This document shows positions 394 through 16,485 of a stretch of DNA of 33,546 bases, piece by piece. The translations under genes were made by a program, and so were the position numbers. Below the pieces are notes generated by a model. It made no database searches. It was given only the letters and a program-made list of their open reading frames with translations, and was not told where the DNA came from. Numbering within the stretch: position 1 is the first letter of the stretch; each line of letters starts with the position of its first letter. The DNA comes from Blastocatellia bacterium (lineage in GTDB: Bacteria > Acidobacteriota > Blastocatellia > HR10 > J050), in assembly GCA_026985075.1 (NCBI GenBank), contig JALSQX010000077.1:1-33546 (forward strand). Reading direction: 5' to 3'.

Positions 394-589
394 ATGTCGC
401 CGGCGGTGCGAGCGAGGTGCTCCCTGAGGGAGCCAGCCCATGGTTCTTCCGCTTCGCTCTGGACGGCTGGGGACGCGGTTGATGAAATTGTGGGAATCAG
501 CAGCCAGTTGCCAGTGGAATGATGGAAGGCGACCCACGTCTGGCCTGATTTCTGGGAAGAACCGAGATTCGAAAAGGAGGACTCTGATC
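394..589 (+). promoter_or_regulatory. Structured 5' leader RNA, copy 1
   Basis: This leader matches the one at 6119-6253. The core aligns without gaps over 65 nt (394-458 with 6119-6183). Outer stem: AGCGAGG 411-417 with CTTCGCT 452-458 (one G-U). Inner hairpin: GCTCCC 419-424, loop TGA, GGGAGC 428-433. An 18-nt 3' linker holds GGTTCTTC (442-449), which pairs exactly with GAAGAACC at 556-563, just before a shared ATTCGA (567-572) and the Shine-Dalgarno AGGAGG (575-580). The helix extends to 10 bp (441-450 with 555-564). Against copy 2, pair C422-G430 becomes U-A and C450-G555 becomes U-A. No known riboswitch class was recognised. It is likely a cis-regulatory RNA controlling translation of the downstream gene; function is inferred. 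Confidence 0.6.
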
Positions 590-2353
590 ATGAAATGTTT
601 GCCATCTCGGCAAGGGCGCAAGCGCCGACTTCTTCTCAGAGGAGTCATCGCGCTCTTGCTCGCACTCACCTTGATCACGCCCGCTCGCGCTGATGATGAG
701 CGAGGCTCGACCACTCCCACCGGTTGGTGGTGGCTCCACGGCGTTTCTGCGGATCAGATCAAAGAGAGAATCGACCAGGGCTTCCGCCTCATCGACCTGG
801 AGGTCGAGCAGACCTCGCCGCTTCGATTCAGCGCAGTGTTTGTCAAGAACCAGGGGGTGCACCAGAAAACGTGGTGGTGGTATTTCGGTGCTACCAGAGA
901 CTTCCTGGCCAGTAAGCTGCAACAGCACCGGGCTCGCCTTCTCGATCTGGAACCGTACGAAGTGAACGGTCAAACGCGGTTCGCGGCCGTGCTCGTCCGC
1001 AACACCGGGTCCCAAGCCAAAGCGTGGTGGTGGTATTGGGGCGTGAGTACCACCAGCTTCATCACCTCGAAGCTCAGTCAAAATGGCGCGCGCCTCATTG
1101 ATATCGACACATATTTCATCGGTGGCCAGCGCCGCTACAGCGCTGTGATGATCCGCAACGCGGGCGCCGATGCTAAGGCGTGGTGGTGGTATTTCAATGT
1201 CTCGCCCAGCTTCATTGCTTCGAAGCTCCAGCAGCATCGAGCACGACTGGTCGATATTGAGCGACACACGTCCAGCACGTTCACGGTCATCATGGAGCGG
1301 TCGCAGGGCGAGCCCTGGTGGTGGTACTACGGTGTCAGCGGGCAGCAGGTCAACGAGCTATTGGCGCAGAACGGCGCGCGCCTCATTGACATCGAGTCTT
1401 ACCGGGTCAATGGTCAGAAGCGCTTCGCCGTGCTCATGCTCAACAACTCGAATGCGCTGACTACCCGAGTCGGTCAGATGTTGCGAGCGGGCACCGATGG
1501 AGCCTCTGGACTCTATCTGAAGCGCATCAACGGTCCTGTCCTCGCCTCGCTCCAGGCGACGAGGGCCTTCGAGCCGGCCAGCGCGATTAAGGTGCTCATT
1601 CACGTGCATGCGATGCTTCAAGTCCAGAACGGCAACGTCACCCTCCAGACTCAAGTTCCGTGGAAGGGAGACCCAAGCAAGTACAATGCGCTAGGCAACT
1701 ATATGTGCGGGGGCAATGATTGTTACAGTGACAATACAGTCGATGAGTCCGATGCGCTCGAAGATGCCTTGCGGTTGATGATGGAGTGTTCGGACAACGC
1801 CCTGACGCAAGCCCTGCGGGACTTTTTCGGCGATGCTCACATCAACGCTACCCGCCAGATGCTCGGCATGACGAATACTCGTCTGCGACATTCGATCGGA
1901 TGCGGTCAAGAGGCGGTGAACAACCCCAATCGGCTGACACTGGTTGACGTTGGGCGCCTGCACGAGAAGGTGGCCACGGGCCTGCTGACGCCGACCAACC
2001 GGGAGACCTTCTATGATTTGATGCTCAATGGCCTGTTCCCAAAGATGGATGATATCATCGCTGAGGAGGCCGTGGCGCTGGGCCTGTCAAAGGAAGACGA
2101 GGATGCTTTCAGGAGCGAGGTGGACATAGCGTATAAAGGCGGCAGCTACGGATTGCCGAACGGCAAGAGCTACCGGTCGGTAGCAGGCTGGGTGCAGCTT
2201 CCGTTCATCAGCAACGGGAGCTTGAGTCACCGCCAGTACGTCTTCGGCATCTTCATCGACCGGGCGACCACGATCAACATCAATGTCCGCGATGCTGCAT
2301 CCGAGTTGCTCCGAGATGAGATTCGCGCGGCCCTGGAGACGTTCAAGCCCTGA
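590..2353 (+). CDS. Secreted WWW-tandem-repeat protein with class-A-beta-lactamase-like serine hydrolase domain
   Basis: 587 aa. The ATG at 590 follows AGGAGG by 9 nt; in-frame codons upstream lie inside the conserved leader. Residues 1-34 form a signal peptide with a basic N-region, a hydrophobic core and a likely cut after ARA. Five tandem repeats of about 50 residues begin with WWW at residues 46, 95, 146, 198 and 243, each continuing to an R-L-[IVL]-D-[IL] strand. This resembles the bacterial tandem repeat domain of polyglycine-hydrolase-type proteins. The C-terminal domain carries the class A serine hydrolase triad: SxxK (S331-A-I-K334), SDN (401-403) and KGG (516-518, in place of KTG). 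Family knowledge suggests a secreted peptidase or esterase/beta-lactamase relative; the substrate is unknown. The distance from SDN to KGG is longer than in true beta-lactamases, so antibiotic resistance is not implied. Confidence 0.85.
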   Translation: MKCLPSRQGRKRRLLLRGVIALLLALTLITPARADDERGSTTPTGWWWLHGVSADQIKERIDQGFRLIDLEVEQTSPLRFSAVFVKNQGVHQKTWWWYFGATRDFLASKLQQHRARLLDLEPYEVNGQTRFAAVLVRNTGSQAKAWWWYWGVSTTSFITSKLSQNGARLIDIDTYFIGGQRRYSAVMIRNAGADAKAWWWYFNVSPSFIASKLQQHRARLVDIERHTSSTFTVIMERSQGEPWWWYYGVSGQQVNELLAQNGARLIDIESYRVNGQKRFAVLMLNNSNALTTRVGQMLRAGTDGASGLYLKRINGPVLASLQATRAFEPASAIKVLIHVHAMLQVQNGNVTLQTQVPWKGDPSKYNALGNYMCGGNDCYSDNTVDESDALEDALRLMMECSDNALTQALRDFFGDAHINATRQMLGMTNTRLRHSIGCGQEAVNNPNRLTLVDVGRLHEKVATGLLTPTNRETFYDLMLNGLFPKMDDIIAEEAVALGLSKEDEDAFRSEVDIAYKGGSYGLPNGKSYRSVAGWVQLPFISNGSLSHRQYVFGIFIDRATTININVRDAASELLRDEIRAALETFKP

Positions 2354-2374: not shown

Positions 2375-2455
2375 ACCGCCCGCGATCTCGGTCGTCTGAA
2401 CTTGACATTGATCAGACTACCGACGTAACGGGCGGTCGCTCTTGCGCCTTTTTTT
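2375..2455 (+). terminator. Nested hairpin and T-tract after the WWW-repeat hydrolase
   Basis: ACCGCCCG (2375-2382) pairs with CGGGCGGT (2429-2436). Inside, CGGT plus GTCTGA (2389-2399) pairs with TCAGAC plus ACCG (2412-2422), leaving a symmetric 6x6 internal loop. A run of seven T follows at 2449-2455. The T-tract sits about 12 nt after the stem, so it is an imperfect intrinsic terminator, but placement 22 nt after the stop codon fits. Confidence 0.45.
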
Positions 2456-2830
2456 AGCGCCCCGGTCCCGCGGAGCGTGGCCCCCGCTTTCCGGGGCCAT
2501 AGGTGCCAGATTCCGGTCGGTCATGTCCATGAGTGCATGGAGACGATTCCATGCTGCCCTGAAGGGGCTCCAATAGCCGGGAGGAGCCCAAAGGGCGTCA
2601 CCCCGACCGCTAGCCCCCTCACCCGATGGGCACCCTGAAAGGGTGCTCCTGAGACCGGGGGTGGCGAGCTCGCGCCCTGACCCCCGGATATGGAGTGGGG
2701 CCCCTTCAGGACCCATGACTGACGGCTTATCCTGGCACGTCGGCATGTGCAGCGCTCCCGGCAGCAGTTGCCGTCTTTCAGGGCCCCTTGACTGACGGCT
2801 TATCTTGGCGCGTATGCCTTCCGGTACCTC
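2440..2830. repeat. REP-like palindrome cluster
   Basis: A GC-rich stretch without a credible gene, packed with short palindromes such as GCACCCT-GAA-AGGGTGC (2630-2646) and several CCCTGAAGGGG/CCCCTTCAGG variants. Such clusters resemble REP/BIME-type intergenic repeats. No RAYT transposase is in the window. A 25-nt unit starting TGACTGACGGCTTATC occurs at 2716-2740 and again at 2789-2813 with two mismatches, 73 nt apart. Confidence 0.5.
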
Positions 2831-3673
2831 CGGGGATCACCTCAGCCTGATGACGTGCGGCGGAATCGACTATGTCTATGCCTGTCAGGGACTCACCAGC
2901 GCGGCGGCCGAATCTTTACAAAAAAGCCGATCATGCTGAGGTGTAAAACCCGAACCCGTCCACCCGGGACGCTTCGGGCAGGACGATGGCCAGGACACAA
3001 CCCGCGACGCGCTCGCGGGATGACCGATGAAGCCTCACCGCTTCAGGCTCCGTGGAAGATCCTTCGAGTGCTCCCGCACCAGTATGCGCGCCCTAAGATC
3101 CAGGGGGAGGGGGCGCCAGAACGGCGAAGATGACCGCCAGGACAGCCGCGGACACGCGCAGGCACTCCCGGTCGCCGTAGGAGCTCTGGAAAGAGGCCAG
3201 CAGCAATCGCAAGCAAACTGAGCTCGAACATCTGACGCCGCCCCGCCGGATCCAGGCTGCGACGCAGCGGCGACATCGACCGATCGTCGAGCGTAGATAC
3301 CGTCGCCGTGAGGCCCGCAAAGATGGCTGCGAGTTCGCAAACTTGGAAGAGGGAGTCAGACTGTGCGGGCCTCTCAGAGCAGTGCCAGACCTGCAACCGG
3401 CGGTTCACTCTAACGGCTTCGTGAATGACCTGAGGCGCAGCCACGGGAACTCCTCAGCTCGGCTGCGACTCGCCACATGGACTAACCCACCACCTGGAGG
3501 AACTCGCCGCGCCGTCAAATCCGTTCACTCGGTGGGTGGCCGGCATCAGGTGTTCGCACGCCGGGCCCACCATGAGCAGCCGTACGTGCCCCCGCAACTG
3601 CCGGGAAAGCCGGGGATTTCACCGAACAGAACCATGATACGTCAAAAGCGAAGACGCTAGACAGGAGAGCCGA

Positions 3674-3752
3674 GGTCAGACCCTGCAAGCCTTCTCGGAT
3701 TCGGCATAAACCCTTGGTGAGGCCATCAACGCCGAGCCAGGGTCAGACTCTG
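3674..3752. repeat. Direct repeat pair, period 67
   Basis: GGTCAGACCCTG (3674-3685) recurs as GGTCAGACTCTG (3741-3752), 67 nt later, each followed within a few bases by a GCC-TTC-CGG-like stretch. The intervening DNA is not duplicated. Confidence 0.4.
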
Positions 3753-3986
3753 AAGCAGGCCTTCCCGGAAGAGAAGGCTGACAGCGAACACCGCGGTAAT
3801 CATGAGGATGTCAACTGCGATTCATGGACCCCAGCACCAGGAGAGTTCGGACCAGCGATACCCCCGTAGAACAGTCCGACAGCACCATACCGCACCAGAG
3901 GACCCACCATCGGCAGATTGCCAGCGATAGACCTATCACGACCGCAATGAGAACCGCTCCCAGGAGGGCAGCCGAAACGCAGCGCA

Positions 3987-4079
3987 CTCTGGATCTTAAG
4001 GCCGTTCGTGATCAAGGACTCGCTCGTCGGGTAGAGCGAGTCCAATATGACCCTCTGGGTCTTAAGGCCATTCGTGATC
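3987..4079. repeat. Direct repeat pair, period 66, flanking a perfect hairpin
   Basis: A 27-nt unit (core TCTTAAGGCC-TTCGTGATC) lies at 3987-4013 and 4053-4079 with two mismatches. Between them is a perfect 10-bp inverted repeat, GGACTCGCTC (4016-4025) and GAGCGAGTCC (4034-4043), with an 8-nt loop. No gene overlaps it. It could be a small mobile or structural element; no T-run makes it a terminator on either side. Confidence 0.55.
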
Positions 4080-4155
4080 CATCTTCAGCTCGTTATCCTC
4101 GAGCTTCCGCGTCGTGGCCTCAGTCACCACTCATTGGCTCGGGGGAGATTTTATT

Positions 4156-4515
4156 TCAACAGCCACTCCTAGACCCCTCCAAGGCCTTGTGCTCCTCCAA
4201 TTCAACGAGAGCCTCCGCGTAGCGCCCTTGGCGCTCCTTTTTGAAGAAGTCGTCACGCACCGGATGAACACACCCAAGACTGGCCATGATGAGCGACATG
4301 GCCATGTGAGGGATCAACATGGATGGGAACGCTGGTTTACCCTCAAGGTGAAAGAGGACCAGTGCACTGGAGAGAGCAAAACAGAAGATCGGGAGTATGG
4401 CATTGCCTATATCCAGACTGACGCCGACCACCACCCTTCTCTCCTCTTTGACCTGTCGTTCCCTCCGGCATTTGGCCTCGCGCGACGATTCAAGCCACTG
4501 TCTATGGTCGCTCAA
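4156..4515 (-). pseudogene. Open frame with two hydrophobic segments, possible gene relic
   Basis: 119 codons beginning at a TTG with no ribosome binding site. The translation has two hydrophobic stretches that could be membrane helices, then a charged C-terminal region. It directly continues from the transposase remnant region on the same strand. No family was recognised. It may be chance, or part of a decayed gene. Confidence 0.2.
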
Positions 4516-5022
4516 CTTGAGCCCGCAGCAGAGACGACGTGCTGGGAGAAGGTGTGGCCGAAGAAGAAACAGTCGCGGTGAAAGTCAAAGCCCCATCGGC
4601 GGAGGGATCGGAGTAGAGGTGGAAGCAGTCACAGTGGTAGGTGTAGTGGTTGCGTCCGTCGCAAACCGGCTTTCCGGCCGGGCTCCAGGGGCAGGGTCGA
4701 GTCGTCAGTGGGGTGATTCAGATTGCCGAGCAAGCCGTGTTGGGCTGGAGGGAGGACGGCCATGGTGAAGAGCAGATCTTCGAGCTGTTTGGGGAAGTCT
4801 TCACGCCGGAGCTGATCGGCCTTCCGGAGAAGTTCCCGCTGGAGATGGTGAGCGCCTGATCGAGGATCTGCTGGCAGCGAGCTTCTTTGTCGACCTTCTC
4901 CCGGTTGAGGTTCCGCCGATGGCGTCCCTTACACTGGACCGACGGCTTGAAGTGATGAGGGCAAGCCGGCGTGAACGGGTTGTCTTCAAGCTGGTCGATG
5001 AAGAGAGAGAAGGTCTCCATGG
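4500..5022 (-). pseudogene. Frameshifted DDE-type transposase remnant
   Basis: Reading the minus strand in three successive frames recovers one continuous transposase-like protein. It begins near 5020 with METFSLFIDQLEDN and a Cys/His/Lys-rich stretch. A frame change follows near 4830 to LLRKADQLRREDFPKQLE and LLFTMAVLPPAQHGLLGN. Another change gives HYTYHCDCFHLYSDPSAD, and a final one-base slip at a GATGG (4592-4596) gives WGFDFHRDCFFFGHTFS. The order and the D-W-G-F-D...H-R...F-F-G-H pattern are typical of insertion-sequence transposases. At least three frameshifts make it inactive. I could not define terminal inverted repeats or assign the IS family. Confidence 0.55.
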
Positions 5023-5026
5023 CCGA

Positions 5027-5191
5027 GGTATGATGGGAGCAAACCGGGCCGGGATGCTGACATTCCCAATCCCTTCGCCACCCTAGCCGCCGGTATGATG
5101 GCGAGCAAAGCGGGCCGAGATGGCCAGCTTCGATGCGCTGTCGGGGTAGAACGGCGTGAAGCCATGGTAAAACGCAAAGCCAGCCGGGATG
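5027..5191. repeat. Three degenerate direct repeats, periods 65 and 74
   Basis: A roughly 30-nt unit, GGTATGATGG-AGCAAA-CGGGCCG-GATG, occurs at 5027-5056, at 5092-5122 with one insertion, and more degenerate at 5166-5191. Intervening DNA is unrelated. The array lies directly beside the transposase remnant. Confidence 0.45.
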
Positions 5192-5254
5192 GTCAGCCCA
5201 GGGCCGGGTTGTGGACACACTGAGAGAGACTCTCATACCGCAAGGATCAGCATC

Positions 5255-5358
5255 GGGAGCAGGACGCGCCGCAGCCAGACCAGATCATTGGGCACTGAAT
5301 AGATGAGTATTGCGGCCGCATTGGAGGGAGCAGGACGCGCCGCAGCCAGACCAGATCA
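5255..5358. repeat. Perfect 33-nt direct repeat pair, period 71
   Basis: A 33-nt sequence starting GGGAGCAGGACGCGCC is identical at 5255-5287 and 5326-5358, 71 nt apart. The 38 nt between them are unique. Its perfect conservation makes it the freshest repeat pair in the window. Confidence 0.7.
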
Positions 5359-5730
5359 ATGAGAGGGCGACCTCGCGGCGAGGGGGAATAGCGCTATTGC
5401 AACAGCGGTCACACAGAATCGAGGTTGATCCGGAGTAGCAGGGTAGCGCGGTGGTGTTTTCCACTCCAACTGCCGTGTCTTGCGTTGCCGGTGGGTGAGT
5501 GCCTCACAGAGAGTTTCTGGTATGCTGAATGGACGATCTTTTTCATCGGCCCTCTTTGTTGGATTTGGTGCCTGATCATTAAGCTGCACAGGGGTCTTGG
5601 GGAATTTCTGACAGGGCAAGAAGGTTCCTGGCTCTGCGAGCACTGCATTAAACCGCACAAAGAGGCCTTGGGAAATGTCTGAGGGACAGGTAGGCCTTGG
5701 CAAAGAGATTGAGGAGCCTAGGGAGCGTCT

Positions 5731-6067
5731 CGGCAGCTACTGCAAGATCAACCGCCTGACAATTCTGAGCTGCCTCTGCAATGAAAGAGATTGATAGAAA
5801 TTACATCCTCGTCACCGCTGCCCAGCCAAGCGCCTGGAATTTCTCAACGACCGAATTCGTGTAGCGCACCGTATTGCCCCATCGCGATCTTTCTGGTATA
5901 CTGGGCGGGAATATTTTGGATATTCATGTGTGATGAACCTCCCCGTTCGCGCGAGGAGGTTGTGGTAGATTATGGGAAGGATCTAGGGCGGAGCCAGGGA
6001 AGAGAGCAATAAGAATTCCACCTCGGCAACCGCGACCAAAATAAGCGCCCGGAATTTCACAATCGCC
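5731..6067. repeat. Three imperfect copies of a leader-proximal repeat
   Basis: A degenerate unit of about 40-47 nt (GCGCC[TC]GGAATTTC near its end) is seen around 5731-5772, 5805-5852 and 6020-6067. The last two agree at roughly three quarters of positions. They bracket the promoter at 5874-5902, upstream of the orphan secreted protein. No coding function is apparent. Confidence 0.35.
5874..5902 (+). promoter_or_regulatory. Sigma70-type promoter for the orphan secreted protein
   Basis: TTGCCC (5874-5879), a 17-bp spacer and TATACT (5897-5902) form a near-consensus promoter. It would give a 5' UTR of about 345 nt containing the leader element at 6119-6253, the same layout as the promoter at 75-103. 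Confidence 0.5.
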
Positions 6068-6118
6068 TCTTGTTTTGTCTGGAGTGCAGCACAAAGATGC
6101 TCATAGGAGCCATTGCTT

Positions 6119-6253
6119 ATGTCATTAGCTGTGCGAGCGAGGTGCTTCCACGGGAAGCCCATCCATGGTTCTTCTGCCTCGCTGGCCATGACATTCGCTC
6201 ATCATGACCACACCTGAGGAGAACCAATATTCGACCCAGGAGGGGATATCACA
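6119..6253 (+). promoter_or_regulatory. Structured 5' leader RNA, copy 2
   Basis: Second copy of the leader at 394-589. Outer stem AGCGAGG 6136-6142 with CCTCGCT 6177-6183 is perfectly paired. The inner hairpin is GCTTCC 6144-6149, loop ACG, GGAAGC 6153-6158. The 18-nt linker contains GGTTCTTC (6167-6174), which pairs with GGAGAACC (6218-6225), one U-G; adding flanking U-A pairs gives 10 bp (6166-6175 with 6217-6226). ATTCGA (6229-6234) and AGGAGG (6238-6243) follow at nearly the same distances as in copy 1. The segment between core and 3' partner is shorter (33 against 96 nt), as expected if only the helices matter. Translational control is inferred. Confidence 0.6.
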
Positions 6254-6880
6254 GTGATGAGAACGACGTTCAACTTGATGAACCTATCCATCCTCGGACT
6301 GCTCCTCTGTGGAGCATATATAATGTCCATCCCATCAGTTTACGCTGCTCCTCAGCCGGGCCAGGACCGGCCGACGAGCATCGAGAGGGCGAAACAAGAC
6401 CTGATCGAGGCCGCCGAAGACCGAATGCGCCGAGCGGCCGGCGTGGCCGGATTTTCCATCGCCGATTTTTCCATTCTCGCCACCGACGATGGCGCGCTCT
6501 TTGTCAACGGCGTTGTTCCCGAAATGGAGCACTACGATGACATGGACTTCCAGCGAGGCGTCACCATTGGCTTCCTGTACATCTCGCTGCCCCCACGCTC
6601 GCGCATACTCGAACCCGCGGGAGCGGGTGGACTTCTCTCAGGGCAAGTCTATCAGGTCCAGGCCCAAGTGTCGCCGCGAACCGGGGAATGGAGCCTCATC
6701 TTCATAGATGAGGAGGGTACACCCGTCGGCGCGAACTTTTTTGACTCCACGAGTCCTCCGTTCCAGCGCATAGGCATTGATATCAGCTTCGAAAAAAATG
6801 GTAAGAAAAGAACACTCTGCGGGAGCTGGCACGGTGTGCTCGTATGCATTCATGCGTGCATCTCCTGGACTAAGGACTGA
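6254..6880 (+). CDS. Orphan secreted protein, unknown function
   Basis: 208 aa from the GTG at 6254 (10 nt after AGGAGG); the next codon is an ATG at 6257, 13 nt away, and could be the real start. Residues 1-32 look like a signal peptide ending in VYAA. The mature part starts with a charged helix (about 40-60), then a beta-rich acidic region. I recognise no family. The last 25 residues are compositionally different, with three cysteines and two tryptophans, after a run of seven A (6793-6799), so the true C-terminus may have been altered by a frameshift. It shares its leader with the WWW-repeat hydrolase, suggesting joint regulation and an extracellular role. Confidence 0.6.
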   Translation: MMRTTFNLMNLSILGLLLCGAYIMSIPSVYAAPQPGQDRPTSIERAKQDLIEAAEDRMRRAAGVAGFSIADFSILATDDGALFVNGVVPEMEHYDDMDFQRGVTIGFLYISLPPRSRILEPAGAGGLLSGQVYQVQAQVSPRTGEWSLIFIDEEGTPVGANFFDSTSPPFQRIGIDISFEKNGKKRTLCGSWHGVLVCIHACISWTKD

Positions 6881-7233
6881 TGCCAGAAGCGTCTGGGGCG
6901 GCTCTGCCGTGGATGACAGACTCTGAGGGCAGACGTTCGGTTCACGAGAGCATCGCGTGACACGCCGAACTCATGGGGGTGGGACACCGTGCCCACTCCC
7001 TCTCGCTCACCAGGATCTCTTCCCTCACGATTCCCCCCGGCAGGCGACGCTCGCCCGACATGCTCACCATCGGTCACTCGCATTGCGGATGACTTCGCTG
7101 CACCATTGAGCCCATCAATCCGAAAGCTCATAGAGCGATCCAGGAGGAACCAACACCGGCTCGAACAGAAACATCGCTCATGGACTCGTTGCTCACGGGC
7201 AGTCATCCAAAGTTCGTCCGCCCAGATCGGTTC

Positions 7234-7336
7234 CCACGAATATGTCACTCTCTCACGGCTCGTGGAAAGTCATCGTGATCGTGCGATTGAGGTGGTGGAT
7301 ATATCCACGAATATGTCACTCGTTCGAGGCTCGTGG
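7234..7336. repeat. Tandem hairpins (two 32-nt copies, period 71) with a 14-bp palindrome
   Basis: Copies at 7234-7265 and 7305-7336 agree at 28 of 32 positions. Each starts CCACGAATATGTCACTC and closes a CCACGA/TCGTGG stem. Just before and overlapping copy 2 is the perfect palindrome GTGGATATATCCAC (7295-7308), which uses the same CCAC and would compete with the copy 2 stem. CCAGA-TCGGT (7222-7231) can pair with ACCGG-TCTGG further on (about 7343-7355), enclosing the array. The array lies about 70 bp upstream of the protease promoter, so it may be an operator or an upstream transcript. Confidence 0.5.
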
Positions 7337-7405
7337 AGAGAGACCGGTTGTCTGGAGCGCAGATCCTCGGCATTTCATCCTCTCCCTCCGAGACGACCAG
7401 CTCAG

Positions 7406-7434
7406 TTGACGCCACAGCGTTGTGACTGTAAAGT
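7406..7434 (+). promoter_or_regulatory. Promoter of the metzincin protease
   Basis: TTGACG (7406-7411), a 17-bp spacer and TAAAGT (7429-7434). The expected start near 7441 gives a leader of about 79 nt with a small CAGCC/GGCTG hairpin before AGGAGG. It lies downstream of the tandem hairpins. Confidence 0.5.
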
Positions 7435-7519
7435 CTTTCACCGAGCAAACCTGTCCATTGGAATGTCTCGTGGCCATCAGCCCGGTTGGCTGCTTAAAGC
7501 TTTTTCAAGGAGGGGTGTG

Positions 7520-8767
7520 ATGAAGTCTATGATCTGGTTGTTAATTCCTGTCGTCTTTCTGGGCTTTGATCCGGCTCCAGCGGCTATCTCTCAGTCGTCT
7601 CCGGACCGGACGCTCATGGCCGATATAGAGAAGGCTCCCGTCCTCTTGGAGACGGATGCGGGGCGCCAAGAGTCGTCTATGAGGGGGCAGATTGTGTTGC
7701 AACGCTCCATCGATAAACAGGGGCAGGTCGTCTTGCAACTGCAAACGCTCAATCTGCTCATCGCCGGGGTGAAAACTCGGCAGGGGAGGGGAGAATCCGG
7801 TCAAATCTCGCTCAGCCTGACCAATCCCGTCCGGACTTTCCCACGAGCCAGTAAAGCTGGCGAGACCTTCGAGTTGGAGTTGCAGATGACCGGTCATTAC
7901 CCACTCATCAATGCGTTGAAAGGATATGGTCGTGCTGATCCCGAGCAGGTGGATAATTACCCGGCACTCACCGAGGAGTTCGTGGGAAGGCTCAAAGGTG
8001 AGCTCACCTTGCCCAAGGGAGAGCGCGAAGACGAAGAGGGCTCGCTGACCCTCACGGGCGAGTTCGTTCTCGGACAACATATCGTCCTGGCGGCGATTCG
8101 ACGATTCATTTTTGAACTCCCTTTGAGGATCCACATCTTTCCACTGACCTGTCCCGATGGTACCGTCTCTCGAACGCGTACATTGTGCGTGAAGCCCGTC
8201 TTTGTGCGCGCCGGCCCGGGCGATTCCACTACCGCTCAGGAGATGTATTTTGCCGAACAATTGGCCAACGCCAATGCCATCTGGGCTCGATGCTGCGTGC
8301 GGTTTGTAGAGAGCAGCGGCACCTTCGTCAATCGCGCCGATCTCCAGGTCCTCACCACGAACGACGGTATCACGTCGGAAGAGGAGGCCGATCTGCTGAA
8401 TGAAGTTGATGATGATGACTGCGTGGAGGTGTACATCATCGAATCGTTCGCTCCACAGTCCTCTCATGGCGGCGGCGCAACCTGGGGTGGAGGAACGGCG
8501 GACACGAAAATCATCTCGGCGGCGAATAATCCACCCATCAATCAACGACATCTCGCTCATGAACTGGGACACGCTATGGGACTGTGTCACCCGGGTACGG
8601 GGTGCGTGCCTCCCCGAGCCGATGGGACGGCTGGCAGTCTCATGACGCCGAGTGGTTTTTTCGCCGATAACCCCGATGTCCTGCGGCAACAAGAATGTTC
8701 CAATATCTCCAATCCGCTCATTCGACTTCGATTGCTGACGGGATGTTGTCCCCATCCGGATAGGTAG
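7520..8767 (+). CDS. Secreted metzincin-type zinc metalloprotease
   Basis: 415 aa. The ATG at 7520 has AGGAGG 6 nt upstream; the frame is open for 177 codons before it, but the promoter at 7406-7434 lies inside that stretch. A signal peptide covers about residues 1-22. The N-terminal 200 residues are a beta-rich domain without a recognised family. The C-terminal domain has the metzincin zinc site H347-E-L-G-H351-A-M-G-L-C-H357 (HExxHxxGxxH) with E348 as catalytic base, and a Met-turn candidate in SLMTPSG (M375). Several cysteines near the site suggest disulfides and an extracytoplasmic location. The substrate is unknown. A strong intrinsic terminator follows. It is the third secreted protein in this accessory stretch but lacks the leader of the other two. 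Confidence 0.85.
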   Translation: MKSMIWLLIPVVFLGFDPAPAAISQSSPDRTLMADIEKAPVLLETDAGRQESSMRGQIVLQRSIDKQGQVVLQLQTLNLLIAGVKTRQGRGESGQISLSLTNPVRTFPRASKAGETFELELQMTGHYPLINALKGYGRADPEQVDNYPALTEEFVGRLKGELTLPKGEREDEEGSLTLTGEFVLGQHIVLAAIRRFIFELPLRIHIFPLTCPDGTVSRTRTLCVKPVFVRAGPGDSTTAQEMYFAEQLANANAIWARCCVRFVESSGTFVNRADLQVLTTNDGITSEEEADLLNEVDDDDCVEVYIIESFAPQSSHGGGATWGGGTADTKIISAANNPPINQRHLAHELGHAMGLCHPGTGCVPPRADGTAGSLMTPSGFFADNPDVLRQQECSNISNPLIRLRLLTGCCPHPDR

Positions 8768-13892: not shown

Positions 13893-14348
13893 TCAGGATT
13901 CTTCCTCCTCTTCCTCCTCTTCTTCTGTCTCGTCTTCGACTTCAACGTCTTCTTCGACGCCTTCTTCATCGAGCGCCTCTTCCACGTCTATCTCTTCCAC
14001 TTCCTCTTCCTCAACGGGCAGCGCTTCGACCTTTTGCTCCTGCTTATAGAGGTATTTGATGCTGTGCTTGAAAATGAGAAGGTTCGGTTCATCGGTGCGG
14101 TGGATCTTTATGCAATTCTTATCGTACCACTCGATCGTTCCAAACACCGTCTCCCCATCGTTGAGCACGACGGCCATCGGCGTCCGATTTTCCATTTGCT
14201 TCCGATAGTAGTAGTTTTCGGCGTGCGTCTGTTCCGGCGGAACGCGCTTGCGCGGCCGTTGGGGGGCCGGGCGTGACACATTCATTTGATCGTAGCCTGT
14301 TCTCGTCGGATAATCCGTGTATGTCGATCTCAAGGTTCGTTTGTTCAC
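13893..14348 (-). CDS. Hfq-like Sm-fold RNA-binding protein with long acidic tail
   Basis: 151 aa from a GTG at 14348, preceded 8 nt upstream by a perfect AGGAGG (plus-strand 14357-14362). A longer in-frame start at 14384 lacks such a site. Residues 1-40 are basic and proline/arginine-rich. Residues 44-102 match the Hfq fold: an N-terminal helix, a Sm1-like strand pair around [18 protein letters not shown], and FKHSIKYLY, the counterpart of the Hfq Sm2 motif YKHAIS. Residues about 110-151 are almost all Glu and Asp. Hfq proteins are hexameric sRNA/mRNA chaperones; acidic C-termini in Hfq are known to affect RNA release. Here both extensions are unusually long. True RNA chaperone activity is inferred. 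It has its own strong promoter. Confidence 0.75.
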
Positions 14349-14411
14349 AGAAGCAACCTCCTGATTTCGTTCATTGAAATTCACTTTCGGGGAGAGTGAA
14401 TTTACAGCTTA

Positions 14412-14440
14412 ATAATAGCGCAGGATGATCCGATTGGCAA
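14412..14440 (-). promoter_or_regulatory. Promoter of the Hfq-like gene
   Basis: On the minus strand, TTGCCA (plus 14435-14440), a 17-bp spacer and TATTAT (plus 14412-14417). The start would be near 14405, giving a leader of about 57 nt ending at AGGAGG-GTG. Confidence 0.6.
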
Positions 14441-14820
14441 GAGTCGGTCTCTTCCGGCAGTGGGCAGCCAGAAGGCCGGTGCTTCGAAGGTCCACGCTCC
14501 ATGAGACGAATGCCCTAGCTCATCCAGCGGGTGAGAGATCGGCGATGGCTGTGGATCTTCCTCAGTATCTGATGAGCGCTGCCTTACCGAGCGCCTTGCG
14601 CGGTCGCTCTCCGAATGGGGATAATATACGTTCAAGGTATCTTTGCTGGCCGTCGCTTTCGATCGCGTTAACCTCAGCCAGGGGAATCCCTGTTTCCGAG
14701 CACCAAGGCCGAGATACCGATTCGGCGGCCGGGGGTGATCTTTTTGGCCTTTCATGATGTATAATTATGACGTGATTTTGATACCAGACTCCGTCCCCGC
14801 ATGTGGAGGCCGGTGAGGAG
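14441..14820. other. Divergent intergenic region between the Hfq-like and TPM genes
   Basis: About 380 nt between divergent genes. A perfect -10 box TATAAT sits at 14760-14765 for the TPM operon, with only a weak -35. Frames open here show no motif or ribosome site. Nothing else is recognised. Confidence 0.4.
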
Positions 14821-14826
14821 ATGAAG

Positions 14827-15711
14827 ATGAAAATATGGATGTCCATACAACGGACGATGAGGGCTGAGCGTTGGTTCATGGCGTTGGCGCTCCTCATAGC
14901 TCTCTTGTTTACGACCGGGGCCTTTGCCGACGAATATCCTGCTCCTCGCGGATTCGTCAATGATTTTGCCGGCATCATTGAGCCTCAGGTGGCAGTCGAA
15001 ATGGAAGCCCTGCTCCGGCAATTGCGCGATCAATCGGGCATTGAGATCGCCGTGGTGACCGTCCCCTCCTTGAATGATCGCCCCATCGAAGACTACGCCA
15101 ACGAACTCTTCCGTCAGTGGGGCATCGGTAGCAAGCAAGAGGATACGGGACTCCTGCTCCTCATCGCTCCTCGCGAGCGGCGATATCGCATCGAGGTGGG
15201 ATATGGACTGGAAGGCGATATTCCGGATGGACTGGCCGGTGAGATCGGGCGGCGGATGGTTCCCTATTTCCGACAACAAGAGTACAGCCAAGGGATTATG
15301 GTCGCCGTCGAATCGATCGTTGCCACGTTAGCCGAAAAGCGCGGCATTCGCATCGAAGGGGCTGATCCGCGATTGGCCTATCGTGGTCCAGTTCGGCGAA
15401 GCCGAGGAACGGGGATGGTGGGGATCGGTTTTCTGTTCATCATGCTCATCTTCATCATCGTGATGATCATCGCCGCGGCTGATGCTGGGCGGCGCGGAGG
15501 ACCACGAGGAGGCGGACGTCGCCGGTTCTACGGAGGGGCCGATTGGTTATGGGCCGCTATTTTGCTCAGTGGATGGTCCGGTGGCGGCTATCGAGGTCGT
15601 GGATCCGATTGGGGCGGTTTCGGTGGCGGTTTCGGCGGCGGTTTCGGCGGTGGCTTCGGTGGGTTCGGTGGCGGCTCTTCTGGCGGCGGTGGGGCCAGCG
15701 GGAGTTGGTGA
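14827..15711 (+). CDS. TPM-domain membrane protein with glycine-rich tail
   Basis: 294 aa; start chosen at ATG 14827, 6 nt after GAGGAG (ATG 14821 is an alternative). A signal peptide (1-34, ending GAFA) is followed by a TPM domain (about 38-175) with the usual opening PAPRGFVNDFAGII and the GIEIAVVTV strand. One transmembrane helix (about 196-216) follows, then a Gly/Arg and finally almost pure Gly/Phe/Ser tail (220-294). This is the architecture of YgcG-type proteins, which occur beside LemA and face the periplasm. TPM domains are linked to envelope maintenance and, in plants, photosystem II repair. The biochemical role here is unknown. It heads a three-gene operon ending in LemA. Confidence 0.85.
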   Translation: MKIWMSIQRTMRAERWFMALALLIALLFTTGAFADEYPAPRGFVNDFAGIIEPQVAVEMEALLRQLRDQSGIEIAVVTVPSLNDRPIEDYANELFRQWGIGSKQEDTGLLLLIAPRERRYRIEVGYGLEGDIPDGLAGEIGRRMVPYFRQQEYSQGIMVAVESIVATLAEKRGIRIEGADPRLAYRGPVRRSRGTGMVGIGFLFIMLIFIIVMIIAAADAGRRGGPRGGGRRRFYGGADWLWAAILLSGWSGGGYRGRGSDWGGFGGGFGGGFGGGFGGFGGGSSGGGGASGSW

Positions 15712-15771
15712 GCGAAATTGGCACGAGATCACTCTGTCCCATCGACCGGGAAAGCGTCAAGGAGATGGAAC

Positions 15772-16485
15772 ATGGAAAAAGAATTGACCGCGCTGGTTGA
15801 AGATCTCAAGAAGGCGCACGCCGACAATTTAGTCTCGATTGTGCTCTACGGATCGGCCGCTGCTGGCGAGTATGTGCAGGGACAATCGGATCTCAATGTG
15901 CTGGTCGTCTTGAGGCATATCGGACCCGAGGATCTTCGGGCATCCCGCCCGGTGGTCGAACGCTGGCAAAAACGAGGCAATCCACCGCCGGTGTACTTCA
16001 CCGAAGAGGAGATGACCAGAGCCTCGGATGTCTTTCCCATCGAATTCTCCGACATGAGTCGCGTTCACCGGGTGATGTACGGATCAGATCCGTTCCACGG
16101 GCTGGAGATTCGAGAGCACAATCTCCGCCATCAGCTCGAATACGAACTCCGCAGTAAGCTCATTCGGTTGCGCGCGTTGTACATTCCGGTCAGTGAGGAT
16201 GCCAAGCGCCTCCGCGCGCTGATGGTCGATTCGCTGAGGAATTTCATCGTTCTTTTCCGCCACACCGTGAGATTGTTGGGGGCCGAACCTCCGCTGAACA
16301 AGCGGGCGGCTGTGCTCCGCCTGGGAGAGGTGTCAGGCGTGGAGGTGAAGCCGTTTTTGGATGTCCTGGCGCTGGCCGAGGACGGCAAGAAGCTCTCGCT
16401 GGAGCAGATGACGGAACGTTTCACGGCTTACCTGGCAGGGCTGGAAGCGGTCATTCGTCGGATCGATGAATTGGAAGGAGGATGA
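15772..16485 (+). CDS. Nucleotidyltransferase-fold protein with altered metal site
   Basis: 237 aa. ATG 15772 follows AAGGAG by 7 nt. Residues 20-48 have the polymerase-beta-type nucleotidyltransferase signature: LYGSAAAGEY (G27, S28), then SDLN (39-42). The family pattern is GS-x(9)-D-x-D; here the second metal-binding aspartate is Asn42, so transfer activity may be lost or altered. The rest (about 90-237) is helical, as in nucleotidyltransferases fused to a substrate-binding helical domain. It sits between the TPM and LemA genes, 60 nt after one and 102 nt before the other, same strand. The link with the envelope pair is unexplained. No partner HEPN/antitoxin gene is visible. Confidence 0.7.
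   Translation: MEKELTALVEDLKKAHADNLVSIVLYGSAAAGEYVQGQSDLNVLVVLRHIGPEDLRASRPVVERWQKRGNPPPVYFTEEEMTRASDVFPIEFSDMSRVHRVMYGSDPFHGLEIREHNLRHQLEYELRSKLIRLRALYIPVSEDAKRLRALMVDSLRNFIVLFRHTVRLLGAEPPLNKRAAVLRLGEVSGVEVKPFLDVLALAEDGKKLSLEQMTERFTAYLAGLEAVIRRIDELEGG

Follow-up and report, generated by a model that had tools for sequence, protein, structure and literature searches.

The preQ1-II, SAM-II and c-di-GMP-II riboswitches form a pseudoknot at the ribosome-binding site. Another kind of leader is represented by the stem in the ompA 5′ UTR, which stabilizes the mRNA of an abundant exported protein. We analyzed a stretch of 33,546 nucleotides from a Blastocatellia bacterium (hereafter, the window), in which two leaders, called W1 (394-589) and W2 (6119-6253), precede genes for predicted exported proteins. 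Like the three riboswitch classes, these 5′ leaders contain a hairpin loop that is complementary to a sequence near the Shine-Dalgarno, an arrangement that fits translational control. Unlike in those classes, the putative pseudoknot is located beside the Shine-Dalgarno and not on it, no Rfam family matches, and the genes encode secreted proteins that do not belong to a shared family. With ompA-type stabilizers, the leaders share a predicted long stem ahead of a gene whose product is exported. However, the leader studied here is common to unrelated genes and occurs across genera, and we know of no conserved complementarity between a loop and a 3′ strand in ompA-type stabilizers.

Among lineage-restricted structured RNAs of Acidobacteria, Acido-1 and Acido-Lenti-1 are classed as non-cis-regulatory by Weinberg et al. 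(2010, PMC2864571). Our leader is likewise lineage-restricted and predicted to be structured, but its position is that of a cis-regulatory element, and neither of the two RNAs matches it. In agreement with the preliminary description, which recognized no known class, a search of the whole window with Rfam 15 (4227 families) gave no match at the gathering score, on either leader or elsewhere. When the five leader loci described below were all searched at permissive settings, nothing above chance was returned on the leader. We also considered attC sites by inspection; in our motif the conservation is inside the hairpin and the ends are free sequence, and the inspected loci have no cassette array. 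A sub-threshold match to Acido-Lenti-1 (RF01687; 26.0 bits versus a gathering score of 37) is present on the forward strand at 149-193, about 200 nt upstream of the W1 leader, with an E value of 2e-4 that applies to a short stretch.

We consider it about an even bet (probability roughly 0.5) that the motif is a lineage-restricted, cis-regulatory structured 5′ leader, whose predicted pseudoknot would tune the translation initiation of exported proteins.

The leader core and its further copies

All features of the two window leaders are on the forward strand. The preliminary description had claimed a gapless alignment over 65 nt, and this is what we find: 77% of the positions are identical between 394-458 and 6119-6183, with no gap. 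The linker that it called nearly invariant includes an 11-nt sequence, CATGGTTCTTC, that is identical at 439-449 and 6164-6174. Stem P1 pairs 411-417 with 452-458 in W1 and 6136-6142 with 6177-6183 in W2. It encloses an inner hairpin, P2, which occupies 419-433 in W1 (six base pairs, 419-424/428-433, around a 3-nt loop) and 6144-6158 in W2 (6144-6149/6153-6158). Both stems can form as had been described, and they consist of standard pairs only in both leaders. The pair changes reported within them are real (C422-G430 becomes U-A, and G416-U453 becomes G-C), but the covariation read from these two sequences is not distinguishable from chance, with 255 of 500 shuffles being equal. The stability of the whole leader is ordinary in W1 (z -0.32) and slightly above chance in W2 (z -1.74).

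We searched for relatives with a covariance model of W1 and W2 (R1) and with a four-sequence model that adds the first two copies found in relatives (R2). A genome of the window’s genus, G001, has one copy (G001:C164:14419-14474; E value 2.6e-6 with R1 and 6.6e-11 with R2). A genome from another genus of the same family, G002, has two. The first, G002a (G002:C83:14854-14911), has E values of 3e-11 with R1 and 1.7e-12 with R2. The second, G002b (G002:C38:30659-30704), is weaker (E 0.002-0.003); P2 is absent from it and P1 is possible via G-U pairs (GGUGAGG with CUUCGCU), and the loop is exactly kept. There are therefore five leader copies in three genomes. Given the R2 E values in the two relatives, the predicted motif is not a chance match.

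Beyond these copies, the distribution is narrow. The window’s own 5.2-Mb genome contains only W1 and W2, as judged by BLAST, and the covariance-model search detected no further copy among the others of the 162 class genomes. When 84,980 species genomes were scanned for the exact pattern, the G001 copy (RFHM01000012.1, an Acidobacteria MAG) was recovered along with five chance-like matches, where our own estimate is that about seven chance matches are expected. Viral contigs and plasmids had no match to the leader. Mismatch-tolerant variants of the DNA pattern gave no extra copies, and their other matches lack a 3′ partner before a Shine-Dalgarno. We found no specific description matching this leader in the literature, and the motif is real, lineage-restricted and apparently undescribed.

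The five copies are on the sense strand, 70-131 nt ahead of the start codon. The preliminary description had named a lack of further copies, or copies inside genes or on random strands, as evidence against its proposal. Further copies exist, and those that have both halves of the motif (see below) are without exception in sense orientation and upstream of a start codon. A conserved predicted structure in this placement in three genomes is what is generally expected of a cis-regulatory leader. The one exception to the placement is a weaker, partial sixth copy that is located 3′ of a gene and is missing the 3′ half. It is found on the minus strand at G002:C83:14090-14147, within 14019-14147, downstream of the G002a gene. 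Its stems P0 (the outer stem, discussed below) and P1 are near-perfect, but its loop reads TGTTCTAC instead of the conserved sequence and has no partner strand on the 3′ side.

Complementarity between the loop and the ribosome-binding site

The preliminary description interpreted the conserved linker as a free site for binding a ligand or protein, and overlooked a 3′ half of the leader, which is complementary to the linker at 555-564 and 6217-6226. Its broader proposal of a structured 5′ leader common to secreted-protein genes stands and now extends to five copies in three genomes, but the rationale based on an unpaired linker is not supported. The linker has its complement in a strand beside the Shine-Dalgarno, with which it most likely forms a long-range helix.

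In W1, the conserved loop, which would be the 5′ strand of the pseudoknot, is UGGUUCUUCC at 441-450. The 3′ strand, GGAAGAACCG at 555-564, ends 25 nt before the start codon, and a Shine-Dalgarno, AGGAGG, was identified from sequence at 574-579. The corresponding elements of W2 are UGGUUCUUCU at 6166-6175, a 3′ strand at 6217-6226 that ends 27 nt before the start codon, and AGGAGG at 6238-6243, again identified from sequence. Stated generally, the loop GGTTCTTC is complementary to GAAGAACC/GGAGAACC located just 5′ of the Shine-Dalgarno in all five copies. The complement is GGAAGAACC in W1 (at 555-563) and also in G002a, AGGAGAACCA in W2, GAGAACCA in G001 and GGAAGAAC in G002b.

Between P1 and the start codon, every copy can form 7-9 consecutive Watson-Crick pairs, or 8-10 when G-U pairs are counted. 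Compared with real DNA of the same length, the Watson-Crick run has a p value of <0.001 to 0.013 per copy. A test based on helix energy gives a combined p of 3e-4 for the five copies, which are related, so that the tests are not fully independent. Because of this relatedness, the conserved complementarity could partly reflect shared descent. We also searched the three genomes with a pattern combining the 3′ element and the Shine-Dalgarno, which matched four of the leaders and nothing else. As these leaders were the source of the pattern, the result speaks to its specificity and is not an independent discovery.

Measured from the end of the 3′ strand, the start codon is 25, 27, 27 and 26 nt away in four copies and 45 nt away in G001. 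In the G001 copy, one position of P1 and two of the pseudoknot are also mismatched. By contrast with this near-fixed distance, the spacer from the loop to the 3′ strand ranges from 30 to 104 nt. Complementarity in every copy and a distance of 25-27 nt in four of five are as predicted for a pseudoknot at the ribosome-binding site. Position, orientation, complementarity and the nearly constant spacing from the start codon together argue for an RNA that acts on translation initiation.

We propose the following mechanism. A two-part stem, made of P0 with free sequence and P1 with conserved sequence, together with the optional hairpin P2, would present the loop CCAYGGUUCUUC. The partner of the loop would be GAAGAACC, which precedes the start codon by about 25-27 nt and the Shine-Dalgarno by at least 9 nt, and this pairing would close an H-type pseudoknot that abuts the ribosome-binding site on its upstream side. 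A single nucleotide lies between the loop strand and the 3′ strand of P1, which would allow the two helices to stack. Opening and closing of the pseudoknot would most likely govern the access of the 30S subunit and thereby tune translation of the exported proteins. The scheme presumes that the leader is transcribed as drawn and that the pseudoknot forms, and from the arrangement we infer an effect on translation rather than on mRNA stability, as well as a regulated state. If confirmed, the leader would be an undescribed RNA family that links unrelated exported proteins and comes with a clear structural test, namely loop against 3′ strand.

The strongest rival is that the leader is a constitutive mRNA stabilizer or translation enhancer of strongly expressed exported proteins, which folds and senses nothing. 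We regard this as possible, though on the whole improbable. Strong closing stems toward the 5′ side, P0 and P1, are what such an element would have, and predicted export, the only trait that the five genes have in common, fits as well. In addition, no intrinsic terminator, attenuator or similar site is present in 1-700 or 5700-6300, and the functions of the genes behind the leaders offer no hint of a ligand. However, a stabilizer needs neither an exactly conserved loop nor a complementary strand at a fixed distance from the start codon. Moreover, the sequence of P0 is free, whereas the loop and the 3′ strand are nearly invariant.

Outer stem, covariation and folding

An outer stem, P0, is possible in all five copies with unrelated sequences (combined p about 2e-4 versus shuffled flanks). 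Singly, W1 has a p of 0.069 and W2 is not significant. In W1, a duplex test places the strands of P0 at 395-404 and 466-475, with nine of ten positions paired. In W2, AUGUCAU at 6119-6125 pairs with AUGACAU at 6188-6194, according to both sequence and fold.

In an alignment of the five copies, 93% of the cells assigned to pairs are paired, versus 37-54% in slid controls. Three pairs vary in a compatible manner: P1 pair 6 is G-U, G-C or C-G, P2 pair 4 is C-G or U-A, and pseudoknot pair 10 is C-G or U-A. These double changes at three pairs come from five related sequences only, and measures over the whole structure are matched by 31-61 of 500 shuffles. We therefore regard the apparent covariation in the five-copy alignment as suggestive.

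The energy-based folding was performed with ViennaRNA, which cannot model pseudoknots. The minimum for W1 does not contain the P1/P2 core. In the predicted fold of G002b, the helix between the loop and the 3′ strand forms directly. The gap between P0 and the 3′ strand is only about 2 nt in G001, which probably makes P0 and the pseudoknot mutually exclusive in this leader. Such exclusion, predicted for this one copy, would amount to a switch.

Genes behind the leaders and other explanations

The W1 gene (590-2353, forward strand) encodes 587 amino acids with BTRD1 repeats and a beta-lactamase-type domain (PF13354). Its frame is open from an ATG inside the conserved loop (440-589), and automatic annotation may set the start 50 codons early. 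The W2 gene (6254-6880, forward strand) encodes an orphan of 208 amino acids, for which we found no Pfam or PDB relative. The remaining products are a repeat protein of 397 amino acids (G001) and orphans of 177 (G002a) and 578 amino acids (G002b). All five proteins have a signal peptide, as judged by eye. We found no homology among them.

The G001 and G002b leaders are located downstream of orthologous genes for a Reg_prop sensor kinase and a LuxR-type (GerE-type) response regulator. At these loci, the two genera can be aligned over the leader and over the block that runs from the 3′ strand up to the start codon, but not over the gene. The orthologous locus in the window’s own genome (G000:C20) has a different secreted gene and retains a remnant of the G001 gene’s end (6840-7925 in G000:C20 compared with 14350-15890 in G001:C164). 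No leader copy is present near the regulator’s orthologue or its paralogues in that genome. Given that the leader was kept between genera while the gene changed, a leader can outlast the gene behind it.

These loci might be read more ambitiously, with the leader as a new class of riboswitch or protein-responsive RNA that coordinates a shifting repertoire of exported proteins, and with the locus as a fixed expression site at which one secreted gene is swapped for an unrelated one. We put this forward tentatively and consider it rather doubtful. If the leader family itself is confirmed, it would be a case of a regulatory leader that outlives its gene, and would provide a route into the regulation of export in poorly studied bacteria.

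The proximity of the regulator genes also raises the idea that the conserved blocks act as DNA, either as sites for response regulators, such as the adjacent LuxR-type protein, or as inverted-repeat recombination sites (GGTTCTTCC ... GGAAGAACC), given that the two blocks are inverted repeats at the DNA level. This is unlikely, in our view. An operator does not need the P0 pairing, which is kept with unrelated sequences, and anywhere from 30 to 104 nt lie between the blocks, of which, in four of five copies, the second has a fixed position relative to the start codon. Adjacency to the regulator is known in only two of five copies (the W1 contig begins 393 nt upstream of the leader), and the regulator’s orthologous locus in the window’s genome is missing the element. 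We also rejected an invertible promoter: in three copies, the repeats of 8-9 bp are separated by just 30-45 nt, a spacing that is short for inversion.

It is also quite improbable that the copies are left over from a repeat or mobile unit and precede these genes by chance. The partial sixth copy, located after a gene and accompanied in G002:C83 by a direct repeat of 36 nt with a spacing of 71 bp, would suit such a unit, as would the absence of orthologues of the W1 and W2 proteins from the relatives searched. It is harder to reconcile with only two copies in a 5.2-Mb genome, with the constant orientation, and with the spacing between the 3′ strand and the start codon, which is kept in four of five copies. 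Divergence is non-uniform, being concentrated outside the loop, P1 and the 3′ strand, and at the orthologous locus it was the leader that persisted between genera and the gene that changed.

We rejected the very remote alternative that the conserved block encodes the first residues of an upstream leader peptide (ATG GTT CTT CYG CNT CGC): the ATG in CCATGG follows a purine-rich stretch by about 8-10 nt and its frame is open into the W1 gene, but ACG replaces ATG in G002a, second codon positions vary where third positions are fixed, and the W2 frame ends after eight codons.

About 3.7 kb between the two leader genes (2400-6100) are without a convincing gene. The window also has a 36-nt direct repeat at 5255-5290 and 5326-5361, with 71-nt spacing. 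Its unit length and spacing equal those of the unrelated repeat in G002:C83, which is probably a coincidence.
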